Source of the DNA: an uncultured Candidatus Hydrogenedens sp.
Lineage (GTDB): Bacteria; Desulfobacterota_D; UBA1144
NCBI GenBank assembly: GCA_902609885.1
Contig: CACLTT010000001.1
Span: 140,723-204,722, forward strand
DNA length: 64,000 nucleotides
Reading direction: 5' to 3'
In this document: positions 10,891-42,316 of the stretch, piece by piece
How the letters are laid out: each line of letters begins with the position of its first letter
How positions within the stretch are numbered: position 1 is the first letter of the stretch
The notes under the pieces: model-generated
Seen by the model: only the letters and a program-made list of their open reading frames with translations
What the model was told of the DNA's origin: nothing
The model's database searches: none
Translations under genes and position numbers: made by a program

Positions 10891-11934
10891 ATGCTATATA
10901 ATTTATTAAAACCTATAATATGGCAAATTAATCCTGAAATAGCTCATGATATTGTTATAAAACTTTTAAAAAATAATATTGTCAATTTATTTCTAAAATC
11001 AAAACCTAATGAAATACTTAAATGTAAATTAGGCAACATCGAGTTACCTTCTCCCATAGGTTTAGCGGCAGGATTCGATAAAAATTTTGAAGTATTTGAT
11101 AAAATGTTTAATTTAGGATTTGGGTTTGTTGAAGCTGGAACCGTAACACCTCTACCTCAGTCAGGAAATGAGAAGCCTAGGATTTTTAGGCTTCAAGAAG
11201 ATGAAGCTCTAATTAATAGATTGGGTTTCAATAATAAAGGCTTGTCAGTCATTAAAGACAATATATTGTCTAAATATAGCAGGTTCATATCTCACAAATT
11301 AGGAGCAAACATTGGTCCGAATAAAGATTCGACTAATAGAATTGGTGATTATGTAACTTGTTATAATTCCTTAGTGAAGTTTACTGACTATATAACAGTC
11401 AATATTTCATCGCCTAACACGCCTGGTCTCAGAAATTTTGAAAATAAAGAAATTGATGATCTTCTTAATGAATTAAGTAGAAATAGGCAAAATAGTAAAA
11501 GTATTTTTATTAAAATATCCCCTGACTTAGAGAGAAATGATCTTGAGGAATCTATAAATAAAATATTGAACTATGGAATGGATGGAGTTGTTCTTACAAA
11601 TACTTCAATAGCAAGACCTCAATATTTACAGTCAAAATTTTCATCTGAAAAAGGTGGATTATCAGGGAAGCCACTGCAAGATAAATCTCGTGAATCAATT
11701 TCTATAGCATTTAAAATTACTCAAAATCAAATCCCTATAATAGGTGTAGGCGGTATTTTTGACCATAATGATGTGATAAATTCTTTAAAGGCAGGAGCCA
11801 GTGCCGTACAAATATATACTGGTTTAATATATAGAGGCCCAGGCATAGCTCGTAATATCAATGATGAATTAGTAAATTATTTAAGAATAAACGGACTTAA
11901 AAATATTTCAGAATTAATTGGTATTAATCATTAG
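10891..11934 (+). CDS. pyrD: Dihydroorotate dehydrogenase (quinone type)
   Basis: PIGLAAGFDKN, INISSPNTPGLR, GVGGI motifs. Confidence 0.95.
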   Translation: MLYNLLKPIIWQINPEIAHDIVIKLLKNNIVNLFLKSKPNEILKCKLGNIELPSPIGLAAGFDKNFEVFDKMFNLGFGFVEAGTVTPLPQSGNEKPRIFRLQEDEALINRLGFNNKGLSVIKDNILSKYSRFISHKLGANIGPNKDSTNRIGDYVTCYNSLVKFTDYITVNISSPNTPGLRNFENKEIDDLLNELSRNRQNSKSIFIKISPDLERNDLEESINKILNYGMDGVVLTNTSIARPQYLQSKFSSEKGGLSGKPLQDKSRESISIAFKITQNQIPIIGVGGIFDHNDVINSLKAGASAVQIYTGLIYRGPGIARNINDELVNYLRINGLKNISELIGINH

Positions 11935-12633
11935 TTTTTCACCATTATCAATATTGAAAATTTGACCGTTTATTTTTTTATTTTTAATAATATAATCAAT
12001 AATATTTAAAATTGCCGATATTCCTTCTTCTGACTTATAATTTTTTTTATATAAGTTTTTAATTTTTTTATTATTAGGCTTTAGTACCGGCCCCAAGTTG
12101 ATGGAATTCATTCTAACGCTATTTTTTAGATTTTTTGAAAATGTTCTAGTGAGCGCATCAAGCCCCATTTTAGAAATTATATAACTACTGAATTTTGTCC
12201 ATTGATTCGTTAAACAAACAGCATCTCCAATATTTATAATATTCCCCGATGATTTTTTAATCATATGCTCGCTTATATGCTTAGACAAAAGAATCGGAGA
12301 AATTAAATTAATATTTAAATTTTTTAGTATTATATTATCCGAATTCTTATCCTCAATAAAAATTGATGCATTATTAATTAGTAAATCGATTGTGCCAAAT
12401 TTTTTTATGCATTGATTTGAAAATTTTTTAATATTATTAATGTTATTAAAATCATATTTTATAATTTTCGAGGTTATACCATGCTCAAACAATAATTTTT
12501 TTAAATTTTTTGCATCGTTAGCACTTTGATTATAATGAATAAGTGGCTGATAGTTATTATTAGCAAGATGTATTACTATCTCTCTGCCTATTCGCTTAGC
12601 ACTACCAGTTACCAGAGCTATTTTTTTATTCAT
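11914..12633 (-). CDS. SDR oxidoreductase, pteridine-reductase/FolM-like
   Basis: VTGSAKRIGREI (TGxxxRIG variant), N-N-A and Y-x3-K active site. Confidence 0.7.
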   Translation of the reverse strand: MNKKIALVTGSAKRIGREIVIHLANNNYQPLIHYNQSANDAKNLKKLLFEHGITSKIIKYDFNNINNIKKFSNQCIKKFGTIDLLINNASIFIEDKNSDNIILKNLNINLISPILLSKHISEHMIKKSSGNIINIGDAVCLTNQWTKFSSYIISKMGLDALTRTFSKNLKNSVRMNSINLGPVLKPNNKKIKNLYKKNYKSEEGISAILNIIDYIIKNKKINGQIFNIDNGEKLMINTN

Positions 12634-34201: not shown

Positions 34202-35134
34202 ATGAAAGTATCTATAACAACACCAGTATGGGGATGTTCGACTGAGAATTTAATTGCAATTGCAAAAATGGCTGAGGATTCTGGAATTTATGCGATATTG
34301 TCCCCGGAAGTTCCACCATACAGCGGTCTATCTAATGCTAGTTTAATGGCAAACCATACCTCAAATACACTAGTGGGCACTTGGATTGCAAATATATATT
34401 TAAGACACCCTGTTTTGTGTGCTGCAGAATCAATGACTATTCAAGAGTTCAGTAACGATAGATTATTGCTAGGTCTAGGTGTTTCACATAAGCCTGTAAA
34501 TTCTAGACTAGGTATTGAGATGGGAGATCCAATCGATACTATGAGAAATTATGTAAATTCTGTTAGATCTTACGTTGATGGGACTTCAGAGCAAATAAGT
34601 TTGAAGAGGAAAATATCTCAATTTCCAATTTATATTGCAGGCTTAACTGAGAGGACTGCAGAGTTAGCTGGCGAGGTTGCTGATGGATTAATGCCATATT
34701 TGGCTAGTACTAGTCATTTGAAAAAACTATCTGATTCTGTTAAAAAAGGAAGAGAATCCTCAAGTTTAACATCAGATTTTTGCTTGACTGCAGGCCTGCC
34801 ATCATTCATTTCAGATGATGAAGATTTAGCAACTGACTCCGCTATCAAGGGTCTTTCTGGATATGCTAGGCTACCTTATTATCAGAGAGTTCTGGATCTT
34901 AGTGGATATGGAGAGATTGTCTCCAAGATTAAAGATGGAACTAACCCCGCCGAAGCATTAACAGCAGAATTGGTGAACGATTTAGCCTTAGTAGGATCAG
35001 TAAAAAAATGTTCTGAAACATTATCTAGATTTATAGAGGCAGGAGCGGATATGCCAATTATAACTCCAAATGCTGTTGGTAAGCAGAGCCCCTTAGAAGT
35101 TATGCAGAATATTTTAGATGTAGTTAGTTCTTAA
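34202..35134 (+). CDS. LLM-class (luciferase-like/F420-type) oxidoreductase
   Basis: GLGVSHKPVNSRLG, YIAGLTERTAELAGEVADGLMPYL. Confidence 0.85.
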   Translation: MKVSITTPVWGCSTENLIAIAKMAEDSGIYAILSPEVPPYSGLSNASLMANHTSNTLVGTWIANIYLRHPVLCAAESMTIQEFSNDRLLLGLGVSHKPVNSRLGIEMGDPIDTMRNYVNSVRSYVDGTSEQISLKRKISQFPIYIAGLTERTAELAGEVADGLMPYLASTSHLKKLSDSVKKGRESSSLTSDFCLTAGLPSFISDDEDLATDSAIKGLSGYARLPYYQRVLDLSGYGEIVSKIKDGTNPAEALTAELVNDLALVGSVKKCSETLSRFIEAGADMPIITPNAVGKQSPLEVMQNILDVVSS

Positions 35135-36725
35135 GAAGTCTAATAACTTTTCCATTAATTGTTTTTTCAATTTTAGAGACAATTTTGATTTCTTTTGGCC
35201 TTTTGTACTCAGCCAGCTCAGAATTAATCATTTTACTAATAATTTTTATTGGATTTTTTATTCTATTTTTTTTTAAAACAACCCTTAAAGATGTAATTTC
35301 TTTTTGATTGTTAATTTTTTTTATACATAGTGCTGATTCATCAACGAAATTTATAGAGTCAGCAATCTCTTCGATTTCTTTTGGTGAGATTCTAAAGCCT
35401 AGAACATTTATTATTTCATCTTTTCGAGATTGAAACCATAAATAACCTCTGTTGTCTAATTTAAATATATCACCAGTTAAAAATAAATTATTTTTGAATT
35501 TTCTCTTAGTCTCCCATGGATCTCTCCAATACTTAATCATTAGTCCAGGATCTTTGGCCTCAACAACTAGTTCACCTACCGAGTTATTTGAAATTTTATT
35601 ATATTTTTTATCTACTAAAAATGCATTATGTCCTGGCTGAACTTTACCGCAAGAGCCAGGTACAATTTTTTTCATTGGATTATTCGATATAAAATAACTA
35701 ATTTCACTCATACCTAAACCCTCATATATATACTTATTTAATTTCTTTTTCCATTCAACAATTATTTCTTTCTTAAGATGTTCGCCAGCACAGAGAAAAT
35801 TTTTCACACTTTTTAATTTTTTAATTTTTCTTAAATCAGCAGTAATTTCTCTTAATATTTGTCGATATACTCCTGGAACGGTCATAAATATAGTTATTTT
35901 TAGATTATTAATTATATCTAGATAATTATTCGTGTTGTGATTTCCTGAATAAATCACAACTGTCGAACCATATCTCAAGCAGTCTAAACACCCTGCACCT
36001 AAAGTATAAGTCCAATTTAATTTTCCTGGATTAAAGACTACATCTTCTTGTTTTAAATTTAGCCAAAATTTAGTTGAGGGCTCTCTGCCAATTATAGATC
36101 TATGTGCATGAAGTACTCCTTTAGGTCTTCCTGTTGTACCCGATGTATAAGTCATATAGCATGGATCATTAGCTAATGTATTTTTATTTTTTACTAAGTA
36201 TTTATGAGATGATTTATTATTTATTTTTTTAAGTTTTAATACTTTTACTTTCTCTTCATTAAAAAAATTAATGAGGGTTTTGCTTATAGCAGCTTTGGGC
36301 TTCGAATTTGCTATAATATATTTCAATTCTCTTTTTTTTAAAAGAATACTTGTTGGTATAGCCACTGCACCTATTTTAACAATTGATAAAAAAAATATTA
36401 CAAAGTCTATTGAATTCTCCATTCTGATTAATACTTTATTACCTTTTTTAATTCCTTCTCTAAGAAGAAAATTCGAATAAAAATTAATTTTTTTATAGAG
36501 GCTAAGGTAACTGATGGAGTTTGTTTTTAAGTTTTGACCGACTTCATATATTGCTATTTTTTTTGATATTTCTTCATTGCCTATCCACTTATCGATACAA
36601 TCAGTAGCCAAGTTAAATTTTTTCGGTATTCGGAAATTGAATTCCTTTTCAGACATATCTTTATAATAATGTAAATTATAAAATGTCCGAATTAATTTTT
36701 TTGGAATAGATGGTATTCTTAACAA
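35124..36725 (-). CDS. AMP-binding acyl-CoA synthetase/ligase
   Basis: MTYTSGTTGRPKGVLHAHRS, TGDIFKLDNRGYLWFQSRKDEIINVLGFRISPKEIE. Confidence 0.93.
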   Translation of the reverse strand: MLRIPSIPKKLIRTFYNLHYYKDMSEKEFNFRIPKKFNLATDCIDKWIGNEEISKKIAIYEVGQNLKTNSISYLSLYKKINFYSNFLLREGIKKGNKVLIRMENSIDFVIFFLSIVKIGAVAIPTSILLKKRELKYIIANSKPKAAISKTLINFFNEEKVKVLKLKKINNKSSHKYLVKNKNTLANDPCYMTYTSGTTGRPKGVLHAHRSIIGREPSTKFWLNLKQEDVVFNPGKLNWTYTLGAGCLDCLRYGSTVVIYSGNHNTNNYLDIINNLKITIFMTVPGVYRQILREITADLRKIKKLKSVKNFLCAGEHLKKEIIVEWKKKLNKYIYEGLGMSEISYFISNNPMKKIVPGSCGKVQPGHNAFLVDKKYNKISNNSVGELVVEAKDPGLMIKYWRDPWETKRKFKNNLFLTGDIFKLDNRGYLWFQSRKDEIINVLGFRISPKEIEEIADSINFVDESALCIKKINNQKEITSLRVVLKKNRIKNPIKIISKMINSELAEYKRPKEIKIVSKIEKTINGKVIRLLKN

Positions 36726-36728
36726 CTA

Positions 36729-37145
36729 ATGGAAGAATTTATTACCTTATCAAAAAAAATTGAATTCTCTGCTTCCCATAGGTATTGGAATGACTCATGG
36801 TCAGAGGAAGTAAATTTAAAGCATTTTGGTAAATGCACCAGTAAGTATGGCCATGGTCATAATTACGTTTTAGAAACCACCGTTGAGGGACCTGTTGATC
36901 CAGATACAGGGATGATAATTAATATTTACAATTTAAAGCCAATTTTGAAATCTGTTCTAAAGCAATTTGATCATAAATTTTTGAATTTGGATACAGATTT
37001 TTTTGAGGATTTAATTCCCACCACAGAAAATTTTGCAAAAATATTATATGAGTGTATAGATGAGAAGCTAAAAGATACTAGATGTAAACTCCTGAAAGTT
37101 AGACTTTACGAGACTAAAGATTTATTTGTGGATTATTGGAAATAA
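36729..37145 (+). CDS. 6-pyruvoyl-tetrahydropterin synthase family protein, copy 1
   Basis: FSASHR, FGKCTSKYGHGHNY (C-x5-HGH), FDHKFLN, YET. Confidence 0.9.
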   Translation: MEEFITLSKKIEFSASHRYWNDSWSEEVNLKHFGKCTSKYGHGHNYVLETTVEGPVDPDTGMIINIYNLKPILKSVLKQFDHKFLNLDTDFFEDLIPTTENFAKILYECIDEKLKDTRCKLLKVRLYETKDLFVDYWK

Positions 37146-37559
37146 ATGTCAGAAAATTGTACGTTAACTAGAATTTATTCCTTCAGTGCAGCACATAGAT
37201 TGCATAATGATAAATTTACAGATGAAATGAATAAGCAAATTTTTGGCAAATGTAATAATCCAAATGGCCATGGTCATGACTATTATCTTGAGTTAACAGT
37301 TAGTGGAGATGTTTCAGCTGATACAGGTATGATTATTAATATTGAAGAGTTAGATTTTGAAGTACATAAAGTTATAGATATATTGGACCACAAAAGGCTT
37401 GATATTGAGATTGATTATTTTATAAATATTAGAGCTTCAGGAGAGAATATTGCAAAATATCTATGGGATCAGTTGGTAAATATTATTCCTCAACCTGCGT
37501 ATCTTTATCATATTAGACTATGGGAAACATCTGAGAATTTTTTCGACTATAAGGGGTAA
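37146..37559 (+). CDS. 6-pyruvoyl-tetrahydropterin synthase family protein, copy 2
   Basis: FSAAHR, FGKCNNPNGHGHDY (C-x5-HGH), LDHKRLD, WETSE. Confidence 0.92.
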   Translation: MSENCTLTRIYSFSAAHRLHNDKFTDEMNKQIFGKCNNPNGHGHDYYLELTVSGDVSADTGMIINIEELDFEVHKVIDILDHKRLDIEIDYFINIRASGENIAKYLWDQLVNIIPQPAYLYHIRLWETSENFFDYKG

Positions 37560-37562
37560 ATA

Positions 37563-38417
37563 ATGAATATCATTGAATTGACATGGGAAGATGTAATAGC
37601 AAGAATTGAGTATGTTAAAAAGAAGAACAAAATAAAATCAAATACTAAGATATACGGTGTTCCCAAGAACGGAATGATCATTACAAGTTTTTTTGGCTGC
37701 GTAAGCGTTTATGATCCTGAAAAAGCGGATTTTATTATTGATGACATTATAGATTCTGGAAAAACCAAAAAAAAATATAAAAAACTATATCCAAAAAAGA
37801 AATTTATTGCTTTATTTGAGAAAGACAAAAAGAATACTTGGATTAATTTTCCATATGAAAAGAATACAAAAGAAGACCATCAAGATTTAGTTGTAAGATT
37901 ATTGCAGGTTATAGGCGAAGATCCCACAAGAGAAGGACTTCAAGATACTCCTAGAAGATTTATTGATGCTTTTCATGAATTCCTATCACCTCCAGATTTT
38001 GCAATGACTACTTTTGATGTTGAGAATACAGATGAAATGATTGTCCAGTTAGATATTCCTTTTTATTCTTTTTGCGAACACCATTTATTACCTTTTTTTG
38101 GAAAAGGCTACATAGCATATGTTCCCGAAAAAAAGATTGTAGGATTGAGTAAACTTGCAAGATCTCTTGAGATGTTTTCAAGAAGATTACAAAACCAAGA
38201 AAGGATTACTAATCAAGTTGCTGAATTTCTTCAAAAAGGCTTAAATCCTAAAGGAGTTGCAGTAGTTCTTAAAGCGAGACATATGTGTATGGAAATGAGA
38301 GGTGTTAAAACATCAGATACTCATACAATCACGAGTAAGCTTTTAGGAAGCTTTAAAAGTGATGAAAGAACTAGAGCGGAATTTCTAAATCTAATAGGTA
38401 ACCACAGGAATTTATAA
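37563..38417 (+). CDS. folE: Phosphoribosyltransferase-like domain fused to GTP cyclohydrolase I
   Basis: N-terminal [17 protein letters not shown]-type motif; C-terminal [47 protein letters not shown]. Confidence 0.9.
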
Positions 38418-39115
38418 TGAAGACTGTTGTAATAAGTGGGGGTACATCGGGGATTGGAAAAAGATTAGTAAAATTATTCTTAAATGAGAAAATGAAAGTT
38501 TTAACTTTTTCAAGTAAGAAAAAAAATATAATTTCTTTTAATAAAGAGTTTAAAGAATTCAAAGATAATCTTTTCTGTTATCAATGTAATATTAGTGATC
38601 CAAAAGATGTAAAGAAAATCTCTGCAATAATTTCTAGAAAATTTAAAAAAATAGACTTTCTTATTAATAATTCTGGAACAAATGTTTTAGGTCCAATAGG
38701 AAAAATTAACGTTAAAGATTGGAAGAAAATAATTGATGTTAATCTTACAGGTCCATTCTTATTAACCCAAAATTTATTAAAACTTTTTAAGAAAAATTCT
38801 GTAATATTGAATATGGGGTCAATTGCATCAAGACAAGGATTCCCAAATTGGTCTTCTTACTGTGCATCAAAATTCGGATTAAAAGGATTTACCGAATCAT
38901 TAAGAGAAGAATTAAGACCAAAAGGTATTAGGGTTGTACATGCCGAGGTAGGCGCTACCGATACAGGCCTTTGGGATAATTTAGAGGGTGATTGGAATAA
39001 AGAGTCGATGATGAAAGATTTGGATGTTGCTAAATTCATTTTAAAAAATATAATTGATTCAAACAGTGTAAATGTTGACGAAATATTTTTAATGCCTCCG
39101 GGTGGAATACTGTAA
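38417..39115 (+). CDS. Short-chain dehydrogenase/reductase in the pterin cluster
   Basis: SGGTSGIGKRL, NNSG, YCASKFGLKGF. Confidence 0.85.
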   Translation: MKTVVISGGTSGIGKRLVKLFLNEKMKVLTFSSKKKNIISFNKEFKEFKDNLFCYQCNISDPKDVKKISAIISRKFKKIDFLINNSGTNVLGPIGKINVKDWKKIIDVNLTGPFLLTQNLLKLFKKNSVILNMGSIASRQGFPNWSSYCASKFGLKGFTESLREELRPKGIRVVHAEVGATDTGLWDNLEGDWNKESMMKDLDVAKFILKNIIDSNSVNVDEIFLMPPGGIL

Positions 39116-39149: not shown

Positions 39150-40187
39150 ATGAACATTGATAACTTAGATACTGAGCTTTTAAATATTTTGCAATCAAAT
39201 TTTCCTTTGGATGTTAAGCCTTTTGAATCCATTGGAAATAAATTGGGTATATCTGAGCTTGAAGTACTTAAAAGAGTAGAAAACTTAAAACATATTAAAT
39301 ATATAAGACAAATAAGTGCAATTTTTGATACCAGAAGTATGAAATATAAATCATCTTTGATTGCAATGTCTTTTGATGATGACAAAATTGATGCTGCCGC
39401 AGAATTAATAAACTCACATCCTGGAATAACCCATAATTATAAAAGGAATCACTTTTATAATTTATGGTTTACCTTAGCCGTTCCGCCAAATAGTGCTTTA
39501 GGGTTAGATAAAACTGTTGATATACTAGCAAAAAAAACAAATGCTAAATCCTCAAGGATCCTTCCTACCTTAAAATTATTTAAGATTGGTGTAAAGTTGG
39601 ATATGACAGGTAAGGATGATATTTCAAAAACTGAGGAAAATGATTTTTATGGGGAAGCAAATATTTCTAACCATTTTGATTTTATGCCTGAAGACATTGA
39701 TATTATTAAGGAAGTTCAGGAAGATTTTCCTTTAGTTGCCGAACCTTTTACAGTAATTTCTTCAAAACTTGGGATTTCGGTAAATGATCTTATATCTACT
39801 TTAAAAGTCTTTCAAGCAAATGGGATTATGAGACGCGTTGCCGCAATTCTTCATCATAGAAAAGCAGGATTTAGGGCAAATGCTATGGGAGTTTGGGATG
39901 TTCCAATCGATAGAATTGAAGATATTGCACCAAAAATGGCATCCTTTAAATCTGTTAGTCATTGTTACAGGAGACCAACTTATCCAGATTGGCCCTATTC
40001 GTTATTCACTATGATACATGGTAGATCTCCTAAAGAATGTAATAGTCTTATTAAAAAATTATCAGAGGTAAGTGGAATCAATAAATATGACGCACTATAT
40101 AGTTCTAAAGAATATAAGAAAACTAGATTGAAGTTTTTCTCCCAGGATCAACTTGACTGGGAAAAAAATATTATAGGTGGTAATTAA
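39150..40187 (+). CDS. Fused siroheme decarboxylase (AhbA-AhbB / NirDL-like, Lrp/AsnC fold)
   Basis: Two Lrp/AsnC-like halves: PGITHNYKRNHFYNLWFTL (AhbA-type) and VSHCYRRPTYPDWPYSLFTMIHG (AhbB-type). Confidence 0.88.
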   Translation: MNIDNLDTELLNILQSNFPLDVKPFESIGNKLGISELEVLKRVENLKHIKYIRQISAIFDTRSMKYKSSLIAMSFDDDKIDAAAELINSHPGITHNYKRNHFYNLWFTLAVPPNSALGLDKTVDILAKKTNAKSSRILPTLKLFKIGVKLDMTGKDDISKTEENDFYGEANISNHFDFMPEDIDIIKEVQEDFPLVAEPFTVISSKLGISVNDLISTLKVFQANGIMRRVAAILHHRKAGFRANAMGVWDVPIDRIEDIAPKMASFKSVSHCYRRPTYPDWPYSLFTMIHGRSPKECNSLIKKLSEVSGINKYDALYSSKEYKKTRLKFFSQDQLDWEKNIIGGN

Positions 40188-41460
40188 AGTGATTTCCGTT
40201 TTAACTATTAATCATAATAATTCTGAGATGTCTTTTTTAGAAAAGTTTTCCTTCAATAAAGATAATCTTCAAAAAGCATTACTCTCGCTGAAGGATATAG
40301 ATGGAATAGATGAATGTATGATTCTCTCTACATGTAATAGAGTAGAACTTTATGTTAGCTCCGATAAGAAAGATATATCCTTTTCACTGATAGAATTCTT
40401 ATCTAAATTTCATTCTACAAATATTGAAAAATCTCCAGTTATATATCAATATTTAACTGGTAGTGATGCTGTCTACCATTTGTTTAAAGTTGCATCTGGC
40501 ATTGATTCAATGATTTTAGGTGAACCGCAGATAATTAATCAAATAAAAGAAAGTTATTCAGAAGCTGATCAATGTAATACTGTCGGGCCATTGCTTCATA
40601 GACTTATTCAAATGTCTTTAAGAGTATCAAAAAAAGTTAGAAGTGAAACTGCCATTGGGTCAAGATCAGAGTCAATTTCAAATATTGCAATGAGGTTCTC
40701 AAAAAAGATTTTTGATAACCTTACAGAAAAAAAAGCTCTTATAATTGGGACAGGTGAAATGTCAAAATTATTTATTGATAACTTAATTTCCGAGAATATT
40801 AATGAGGTTTATGTAGCTTCACGTGATATAAAAAATGCCATAAATTTCTGTGATAAAAATAGTGCAAAACCTATATTGTTTGAGGATATCCGAAAGTATC
40901 TTCAGTCGGTTGATATTATTTTTACTTCTACAGGGTCAAATGAATTTATTTTAAGGAAAGGTGATTTTGAAGATTTAAAAACAAAAGATATTTTTATAGC
41001 TGATATAGCTTTACCCAGAGATATTGACCCTCGAGTCGGAGATTTAGATTTTTGTTACCTTTACGACTTGGATGATTTTAAAAATTTATCTATAAATAAT
41101 AAAAATGCCTATAACACAAGTATCAAACAGGCTATCATTATAATCAATAATAGCGTAGAATCTTTTGATTCATGGCTCGATACCTCTTCATTAAAAGAGT
41201 TAATTCAATCTTTTCAAAAATATATTGAATCTGCTGTTGATGAAGAAATTAGAAATAGTAAAAATATCGATAAAGATGCTTTAATTTCAAAAATTACTAA
41301 TAAAATTCTCCATATTCCAATTTCTAAAATCAAGGGTGAATTAAAATTTGATAAAAATAGTATAAGAATAATAGAAGATTTATTTGATTTAGAAAAAAGA
41401 AAACAGAATAAAAAAATTATTAATGAAATCAATGAAGCAAGAAATAAGAATAGGTACTAG
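40177..41460 (+). CDS. hemA: Glutamyl-tRNA reductase
   Basis: LSTCNRVELY, HLFKVASGIDSMILGEPQI, IGTGEMSKL. Confidence 0.95.
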   Translation: MVIKVISVLTINHNNSEMSFLEKFSFNKDNLQKALLSLKDIDGIDECMILSTCNRVELYVSSDKKDISFSLIEFLSKFHSTNIEKSPVIYQYLTGSDAVYHLFKVASGIDSMILGEPQIINQIKESYSEADQCNTVGPLLHRLIQMSLRVSKKVRSETAIGSRSESISNIAMRFSKKIFDNLTEKKALIIGTGEMSKLFIDNLISENINEVYVASRDIKNAINFCDKNSAKPILFEDIRKYLQSVDIIFTSTGSNEFILRKGDFEDLKTKDIFIADIALPRDIDPRVGDLDFCYLYDLDDFKNLSINNKNAYNTSIKQAIIIINNSVESFDSWLDTSSLKELIQSFQKYIESAVDEEIRNSKNIDKDALISKITNKILHIPISKIKGELKFDKNSIRIIEDLFDLEKRKQNKKIINEINEARNKNRY

Positions 41461-42316
41461 AGGAAGTAAGCTTGCTCTATGGCAAGCAAATTATATTAAA
41501 TTTTATTTAGAAAATAATTTCTCAGATATTTCAGTATCGATCCATGTCATTCAAACAAAAGGTGATGTAAACCTTAAAGAGGATTTGAGTGATTTGGGTG
41601 GCAAAGGAGTCTTTGTTAAAGAAATTCAAAAGGCGTTATTTGAAAATGAAATTGATATTGCGGTTCATAGTTATAAAGATTTACCCTCAGAAAGATCTCA
41701 TGACTTAGAAGTTATTTCGGTATCACCGAGGGAAGACGAAAGAGATGTATTGATTTCCAAAAATAAACAAATTTTTACTGAATTGGATCCAAATAGTACC
41801 ATTGGAACGGGGAGTCTAAGAAGAGCTGAACAAATAAAGTTAATTAGAGATGATTTAAAATATAAGCCAATTCGCGGAAATATTGATACCAGAATAAATA
41901 AAGTATTAAACAATGAATTTGATGCAATTATTATTGCTGCAGCTGGTGTAATCAGATTAGATCTATCAGATCATATTTCAAACTTTTTTAAAGTCGAAGA
42001 AATTGTTCCGCCACCCCTTCAAGGATTTATAGCAGTAGAGGCAAAAGTTGGTTTTAATTTTAAAAATATGTTTGAGGGTTTATGTAATCCAGTTGAGAAG
42101 ATCATTGCACAATATGAATATAGTGCATTAAGCCAACTGAATGGATCATGTGATCTGCCTTTTGGATTCAATTTAAAATATATAAACAATGGTTTTGATT
42201 GTAGTTATTTTCTCAAAACAGCAAATAATATAATCTCAGGTAAAGAGCATTTTGGAATGGAGGATATTGAAAAAAATTTTCAAAATATAATGGGTAAGCT
42301 AAAGTCTTATATCTGA
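41423..42316 (+). CDS. hemC: Porphobilinogen deaminase
   Basis: IRIGTRGSKLALWQ, HSYKDLPSE, GTGSLRR, RGNIDTR, LNGSCDLPFG. Confidence 0.94.
   Translation: MKSMKQEIRIGTRGSKLALWQANYIKFYLENNFSDISVSIHVIQTKGDVNLKEDLSDLGGKGVFVKEIQKALFENEIDIAVHSYKDLPSERSHDLEVISVSPREDERDVLISKNKQIFTELDPNSTIGTGSLRRAEQIKLIRDDLKYKPIRGNIDTRINKVLNNEFDAIIIAAAGVIRLDLSDHISNFFKVEEIVPPPLQGFIAVEAKVGFNFKNMFEGLCNPVEKIIAQYEYSALSQLNGSCDLPFGFNLKYINNGFDCSYFLKTANNIISGKEHFGMEDIEKNFQNIMGKLKSYI

Follow-up and report, generated by a model that had tools for sequence, protein, structure and literature searches.

Phage gene clusters for 7-deazaguanine synthesis lead to 7-deazaguanine bases in phage DNA; the GTP cyclohydrolase I (GCH1, or FolE) of phage 9g is an unfused protein that complements E. 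coli folE, and a phosphoribosyl domain goes unmentioned in that account (PMC6884629). Among proteins of the PTPS family, the motif C-x5-HGH (CxxxxxHGH) defines PTPS-II (PMC5041015), and the title of Burgisser 1995, as cited in PMC7546909, places the PTPS triad between subunits. Our search of the open-access literature returned no description of a PRTase-GCH1 fusion and none of tandem PTPS genes.

Both occur in the stretch of DNA analysed here (the window, 64,000 nucleotides at its full length), which is part of a 985 kb genome in 11 contigs of marine Dadabacteria of the UBA1144 type. The same fusion is present on contigs of Candidatus Dadabacteria UBA1144 and of marine MAGs, which points to a streamlined marine dadabacterium as the source. 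Four genes lie on the forward strand: PTPSa (36729..37145, 138 aa), PTPSb (37146..37559, 137 aa), a virus-type mini-PRTase-FolE fusion (37563..38417, 284 aa) and an SDR (38417..39115, 232 aa). The preliminary description had reported them as arranged head to tail with almost no spacing, and all four ORFs are confirmed at these positions, with gaps of 0-3 bp and a 1 bp overlap between the fusion and the SDR. A divergent AMP-ligase gene is the 5' neighbour of PTPSa, and a fused siroheme decarboxylase gene, hemA and hemC lie on the 3' side of the SDR. Families within the class are coded f1 to f8 here, the window's own being f1. Conservation of the neighbourhood was checked in relatives, and the four-gene arrangement is kept in all 12 f1 genomes that have the region assembled, which excludes chance. 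Two further f1 genomes (G001 and G005) have neither the operon nor hemA; because hemA is gone as well, an assembly gap is the more likely cause, and genuine absence of the operon is disfavoured. Across the class the ancestral order is PTPSa-PTPSb-FolE(-SDR), upstream of hemA, and in several families the ancestral operon includes the SDR. An Rfam search of the region returned no match to an RNA family.

The flanks hold two further features. On the upstream side (34202-36725), a luciferase-like monooxygenase gene stands directly before PTPSa and in the same direction in other f1 genera; in the window's genus the divergent AMP-ligase gene lies between the two. On the downstream side (39150-42316), the siroheme decarboxylase is a 345-aa fusion of AhbA and AhbB with both halves above the NCBIfam cutoffs, and its position directly ahead of hemA and hemC suggests that haem b is made via sirohaem in the window genome.

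The third protein of the operon had been described as a PRTase-like segment of about 100 residues joined to a complete GTP cyclohydrolase I, and both halves are recognizable, the first in truncated form. Residues 110-278 (37890..38396) are a complete GCH1 domain (PF01227, E 3e-65). The protein scores 205.4 bits against the FolE equivalog model TIGR00063, above its cutoff of 181.6, and the CEHH motif and the later His and Cys (C171, H173, H174, H240 and C242) are invariant among 67 fusions. In protein searches for FolE, it is the only FolE-type GTP cyclohydrolase I in the window genome and the only FolE in all 12 assembled f1 genomes. With its domain intact, the fusion very probably has GCH1 activity. 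The FolE of phage 9g was dismissed as experimental support for the fusion, since it is unfused.

Residues 1-102 (37563..37868) match phrog_8995 (2e-10) and, by profile, XGPRT (3.5e-8). The AF2 model of this domain (pLDDT 94.4) has E. coli and Yersinia XGPRT as its best PDB matches in Foldseek, with a TM of about 0.73-0.81, and the PRPP loop, DDIIDSGKT, is intact in the window copy. The N-terminal segment of about a hundred residues is therefore a genuine, though shortened, PRTase domain of the XGPRT kind; the PRTase fold proposed for it is present.

The same fusion is frequent in viruses. In IMG/VR, 340 candidate stretches hold relatives of the N-terminal domain; among the best 80 of them, it is fused to FolE in 77, and homologs of QueD, QueE, QueC or DpdA are present in the fetched stretch, again in 77. 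Isolates with the fusion include Queuovirinae phages (such as NP1 and Vibrio 1.207.B), whose records annotate it only as GTP cyclohydrolase and so leave a common accessory domain of GCH1 unnamed. These viral matches exclude the fusion as an invention specific to f1. Two CPR genomes (Peribacteria/Peregrinibacteria, L073 and L074) also have the fusion, there surrounded by folate genes: folK in L074, DHFR and, as read from the sequence, a gene resembling thymidylate synthase. Two Anaerolinea MAG contigs (L075 and L076) contain Nipunavirus-like QueE-QueC-QueD-fusion-DpdA-clamp-polymerase clusters and probably represent phage DNA that was binned together with its host. A FolE on a plasmid of Sinorhizobium chiapasense (NZ_CP133151.1:90852-91631) matches the fusion from residue 31 on and is possibly one more fused copy.

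Phylogenetic analysis of the FolE domain places f1 inside the viral fusions (100/99), and FolE from the other class families groups in a clade of its own (99/94). Forcing f1 FolE and class FolE together is rejected (p-AU 0.0066), which excludes the FolE of the fusion as a vertical descendant of the class FolE. The f1 N-terminal domains are also nested inside viral ones (97/87). The nearest viral sisters of the two domains are not the same, which suggested a mosaic origin, yet a mosaic is not required, as an N-domain tree constrained to the nearest viral group of the FolE tree is not rejected (p 0.129). PTPSa, PTPSb and the genes on either side are the class's own, as expected under vertical inheritance, and our search found no close viral homologs of PTPSa. 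A vertical operon around a fusion nested among viral ones makes it very likely that a virus-type fused GCH1 displaced the host folE in place. The most economical reading is that the displacement predates the f1 radiation: the f1 ancestor would have had an old Dadabacterial pterin operon, in which folE was swapped in place for a virus-type GCH1 bearing an XGPRT fold. A separate observation concerns f2, where most genomes of one genus (L191, L196-L198, L202 and L203) have the PTPS pair and the SDR, and protein searches found no FolE at that locus or anywhere else in these genomes; FolE2 may take its place.

Both PTPS proteins match PF01242 (E 5e-34 for PTPSa and 6e-29 for PTPSb) and, as first described, carry an intact C-x5-HGH motif (FGKCTSKYGHGHNY in PTPSa, FGKCNNPNGHGHDY in PTPSb). 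The catalytic and zinc residues that were checked are kept: PTPSa has the Cys, the Asp-His pair, the three zinc His and the pterin-binding Glu, and PTPSb, a separate ancient paralog, has complete active-site residues. In the tree both proteins are on the side of animal PTPS (PTPS-II), far from phage QueD, and not among QueD proteins. Neither is of the PTPS-I type, for they score 68 and 58 bits against the QueD model TIGR03367 (cutoff 89.25) and lack CxxxHGH; nor of the PTPS-III type, since the position of the Glu in ExxHGH is Lys or Pro in the window copies. They may still be capable of the QueD reaction. The PTPSb clade has support of 100/98, PTPSa forms one side of the branch in 71% of bootstrap trees, and the duplication goes back at least to the origin of the class. 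The window genome also has a third PTPS (L001:1492-1896, on G000:C3), which is specific to f1 (clade 99/100), has C-x5-HGH and comes after a glyoxalase gene; in several genera the next gene encodes a DPRP-type photolyase, and in others an M42 peptidase. One f4 genome (L194, on G045:C57) encodes a third PTPS whose motif is CxxxHGH, the canonical one of QueD, either a real extra gene or contamination.

The two paralogs have lost different parts of the active site in relatives of f1. In f2, f4 and f6 the catalytic Cys of PTPSa is replaced by Ser, Ala or Asn and its Asp-His is kept. PTPSb keeps the Cys, and its catalytic His is replaced by Tyr in f2, f6 and one f4 subclade, with a change of Asp to Asn as well in most of the f2 genomes read. 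The reverse pattern, loss of His from PTPSa and of Cys from PTPSb, was never observed in the families compared. The tree suggests that the His was lost twice, each time within the Cys-less lineage; f1, f5, f7 and f8 have two complete copies. A Fisher value calculated in this comparison takes no account of relatedness. In PTPS the Cys reportedly comes from one chain and the Asp-His from the neighbouring chain, as Burgisser et al. in 1995 and Ploom et al. in 1999 are said to have found. Given a triad of this kind, as in rat PTPS, the complementary loss of Cys and His implies an a/b hetero-oligomer, and this is a likely state of the pair in the relatives. By orthology, the window pair is on balance expected to do the same; since both of its copies are complete, each could function as a homo-oligomer. 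PTPSa and PTPSb would thus work jointly as one hetero-oligomeric enzyme of the PTPS-II type with Cys/Asp-His sites formed between subunits. It had been suggested that the two copies do different steps, which is possible, but the complementary loss in relatives favours a single enzyme.

The best-surviving alternative develops that suggestion. In it, each paralog forms a homo-oligomer of its own and the products differ: PTPSb might make carboxy-tetrahydropterin (the QueD role) and the Cys-bearing PTPSa provide a bypass of FolB, with the decayed copies elsewhere dying or re-purposed. The distribution of FolB gives it some substance: f1, f5 and f7, which have no FolB, keep the Cys of PTPSa, and f2, f4 and f6, which have FolB, have lost it. 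A second FolK is found next to FolB in most of the FolB-plus families, and only in such families, and the pterin-loop Thr is replaced by Gly in PTPSb. These correlations with FolB and the PTPSa Cys rest on few independent events, however, and f8 (one incomplete genome) breaks them by having both. Moreover, a PTPSb with no catalytic His, as in f2, f6 and part of f4, would have no activity on its own, but it stays intact and in frame beside PTPSa in genomes that have QueC and no other PTPS. We regard separate homo-oligomers as unlikely and prefer the hetero-oligomer.

A census of 14 f1 genomes, run with control genomes that gave positive signals, found QueC and FolK in all (14/14 each), FolB in none and Biopterin_H in none (0/14 each). 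The preliminary description had remarked that queC and queE are not next to the operon. This is true locally; elsewhere in the window genome queC adjoins queE, with no queD there. All three PTPS-family proteins of this genome have C-x5-HGH, and none has C-x3-HGH or ExxHGH. The two f3 genomes have no PTPS pair and no true QueC, and FolB is present in them. Since the window genome is without a motif-defined QueD and without FolB, the PTPS product is expected to pass to QueE and QueC and possibly to FolK. In the proposed scheme the fusion would convert GTP to 7,8-dihydroneopterin triphosphate, which PTPSa/b would turn into carboxy-tetrahydropterin for QueE and QueC and perhaps also into hydroxymethyl-dihydropterin for FolK. 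The gene content thus leans towards the operon being a dihydroneopterin-triphosphate hub for queuosine and folate rather than for biopterin, although every PTPS here carries the motif assigned to biopterin synthesis.

Tetrahydrobiopterin-type synthesis, the route originally proposed for the operon, is rejected as the first choice, since the 14 f1 genomes yielded no aromatic amino acid hydroxylase and the operon SDR reached none of the sepiapterin reductase models. If the operon did make tetrahydrobiopterin or a similar 6-substituted tetrahydropterin, the SDR would be a sepiapterin-type reductase and the pterin would serve an as yet unnamed enzyme or else have a function linked to light or redox chemistry. 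The PTPS-II motif, the grouping with animal PTPS and the fact that the SDR adjoins these genes in other families too are in keeping with such a pathway. The PDB matches of the SDR include the Chlorobium sepiapterin reductase 2bd0, but just as one of 321 generic SDR matches. Queuosine without QueD and folate without FolB would, in addition, still call for some substitute. We consider a biopterin product improbable and retain the queuosine and folate hub. Elsewhere in the window, the SDR at 11914-12633 had been called FolM/PTR1-like. Its best scores are indeed to pteridine-reductase and dihydromonapterin-reductase models, all of them below cutoff, and a FolM-like role is possible.

The N-terminal domain of the fusion keeps its ligand positions. 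D60, D61, D64, G66 and T68 are invariant across 67 diverse fusions, K87 and W93 are nearly so, and the conserved Lys and Trp align with the Lys/Trp regions of XGPRT. Its PPi loop is KNG in all f1 copies and so is not of the RGG type; it is RGG in viruses, with K or N replacing R in 4 of 57, and KSG in both Peribacteria. The PPi and PRPP loops are 21-30 residues apart in nearly all copies (37 in one viral copy; 23 in the window fusion, from the PPi-loop Gly to the PRPP-loop Asp), compared with 49 in XGPRT, which indicates that the stretch holding the flexible catalytic loop is missing. With a KNG loop and no flexible-loop region, the domain is not classed as a working PRTase. The fusion is shared by 7-deazaguanine, folate and window contexts, which ties the domain to GCH1 and not to one end product. 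Because it accompanies GCH1 whatever the product, with ligand positions kept and catalytic elements reduced, we read it as regulatory: tentatively, a nucleotide-sensing, ligand-binding regulator of GCH1. This is the weakest step of the scheme. Some PRTases bind ppGpp, and one ppGpp-binding PRTase structure is among the Foldseek matches of the domain, so that PRPP, GMP and ppGpp are candidate ligands. The mini-PRTase would bind a purine nucleotide, PRPP or ppGpp and tune the GCH1 step, with no ribosylation of a pterin.

Were the domain instead a working enzyme, it would join a base to PRPP to give GMP (or XMP), a local salvage that feeds GTP to GCH1. The XGPRT fold, the intact PRPP loop and the Lys and Trp aligned with those of XGPRT would all be accounted for, and viruses that divert GTP into modified bases do carry the mini-PRTase. 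Against this, the shortened spacing has removed the flexible-loop region, the PPi loop is KNG in every f1 copy, and two kinase reactions still separate GMP from GTP; salvage is a doubtful role. A ribosylated pterin, also raised as a product in the preliminary description, is disfavoured, as the same fusion goes with three end products (viral 7-deazaguanine DNA bases, the Peribacteria folate neighbourhood and the window operon) and the catalytic loop is lost. A passive relic or ligand-free assembly aid would suit the reduced catalytic parts and the altered PPi loop of cellular copies, but it is improbable because a relic would not retain five residues invariant in 67 fusions and the nearly invariant K87 and W93.

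Taken as a whole, the explanation favoured here (displacement of folE, GCH1 activity, a PTPS hetero-oligomer, supply of queuosine and folate, regulation by the N-terminal domain) has about an even chance of being correct. A bolder version would have a virus-derived GCH1 displace the host's sole GCH1, the mini-PRTase act as a nucleotide-sensing switch on all pterin flux, and that flux enter a hetero-oligomeric PTPS whose intersubunit sites supply queuosine and folate; so much in combination is rather unlikely. If the favoured explanation is right, replacement in place has put an enzyme with which viruses modify their DNA at the start of folate and tRNA-queuosine synthesis in an ocean lineage that is widespread, and core metabolism of the host has clearly recruited a viral metabolic gene. 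The loss of complementary residues from the PTPS pair offers a directly testable case of passage from homo-oligomer to obligate hetero-oligomer, and the pair cautions that C-x5-HGH by itself is no proof of biopterin synthesis. The original observation stands and its biopterin interpretation is borne out only in part; more interest attaches to the exchange of folE for a viral-type gene and to the PTPS paralogs with their complementary losses.

Compared with known systems, the operon combines familiar parts in an altered form. The N-terminal domain shares its fold and PRPP loop with E. coli XGPRT (1a95, 4jls), but it has about 100 residues where XGPRT has 152, lacks the flexible-loop region and has a changed PPi loop. 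Animal PTPS (rat 1b66, human 3i2b, C. elegans 2g64) are the nearest solved structures to both window copies and have C-x5-HGH and the catalytic residues in common with them; animal PTPS is the product of one gene, whereas the window has two tandem paralogs, in a setting where biopterin users were not found and relatives show complementary decay. The fusions of Peribacteria/Peregrinibacteria L073 and L074 likewise belong to cellular genomes and likewise have Lys for Arg in the PPi loop, but they lie in a folate neighbourhood with no PTPS adjacent and on a branch separate from that of the window. FolE of the other Dadabacteria families sits in the same gene order as in the window, PTPSa-PTPSb-FolE(-SDR)-hemA, and differs in belonging to a separate clade and in having no PRTase domain, which the window FolE has. 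The fused FolE of Queuovirinae and of many IMG/VR viruses (for example Pseudomonas phage NP1 and Vibrio phage 1.207.B) has the same mini-PRTase and GCH1 architecture as that of the window. The viral fusions are located in 7-deazaguanine clusters and have RGG as their PPi loop; the window copy has KNG and, unlike them, no QueC, QueE or DpdA beside it, adjoining instead two PTPS-II proteins in a cellular operon.
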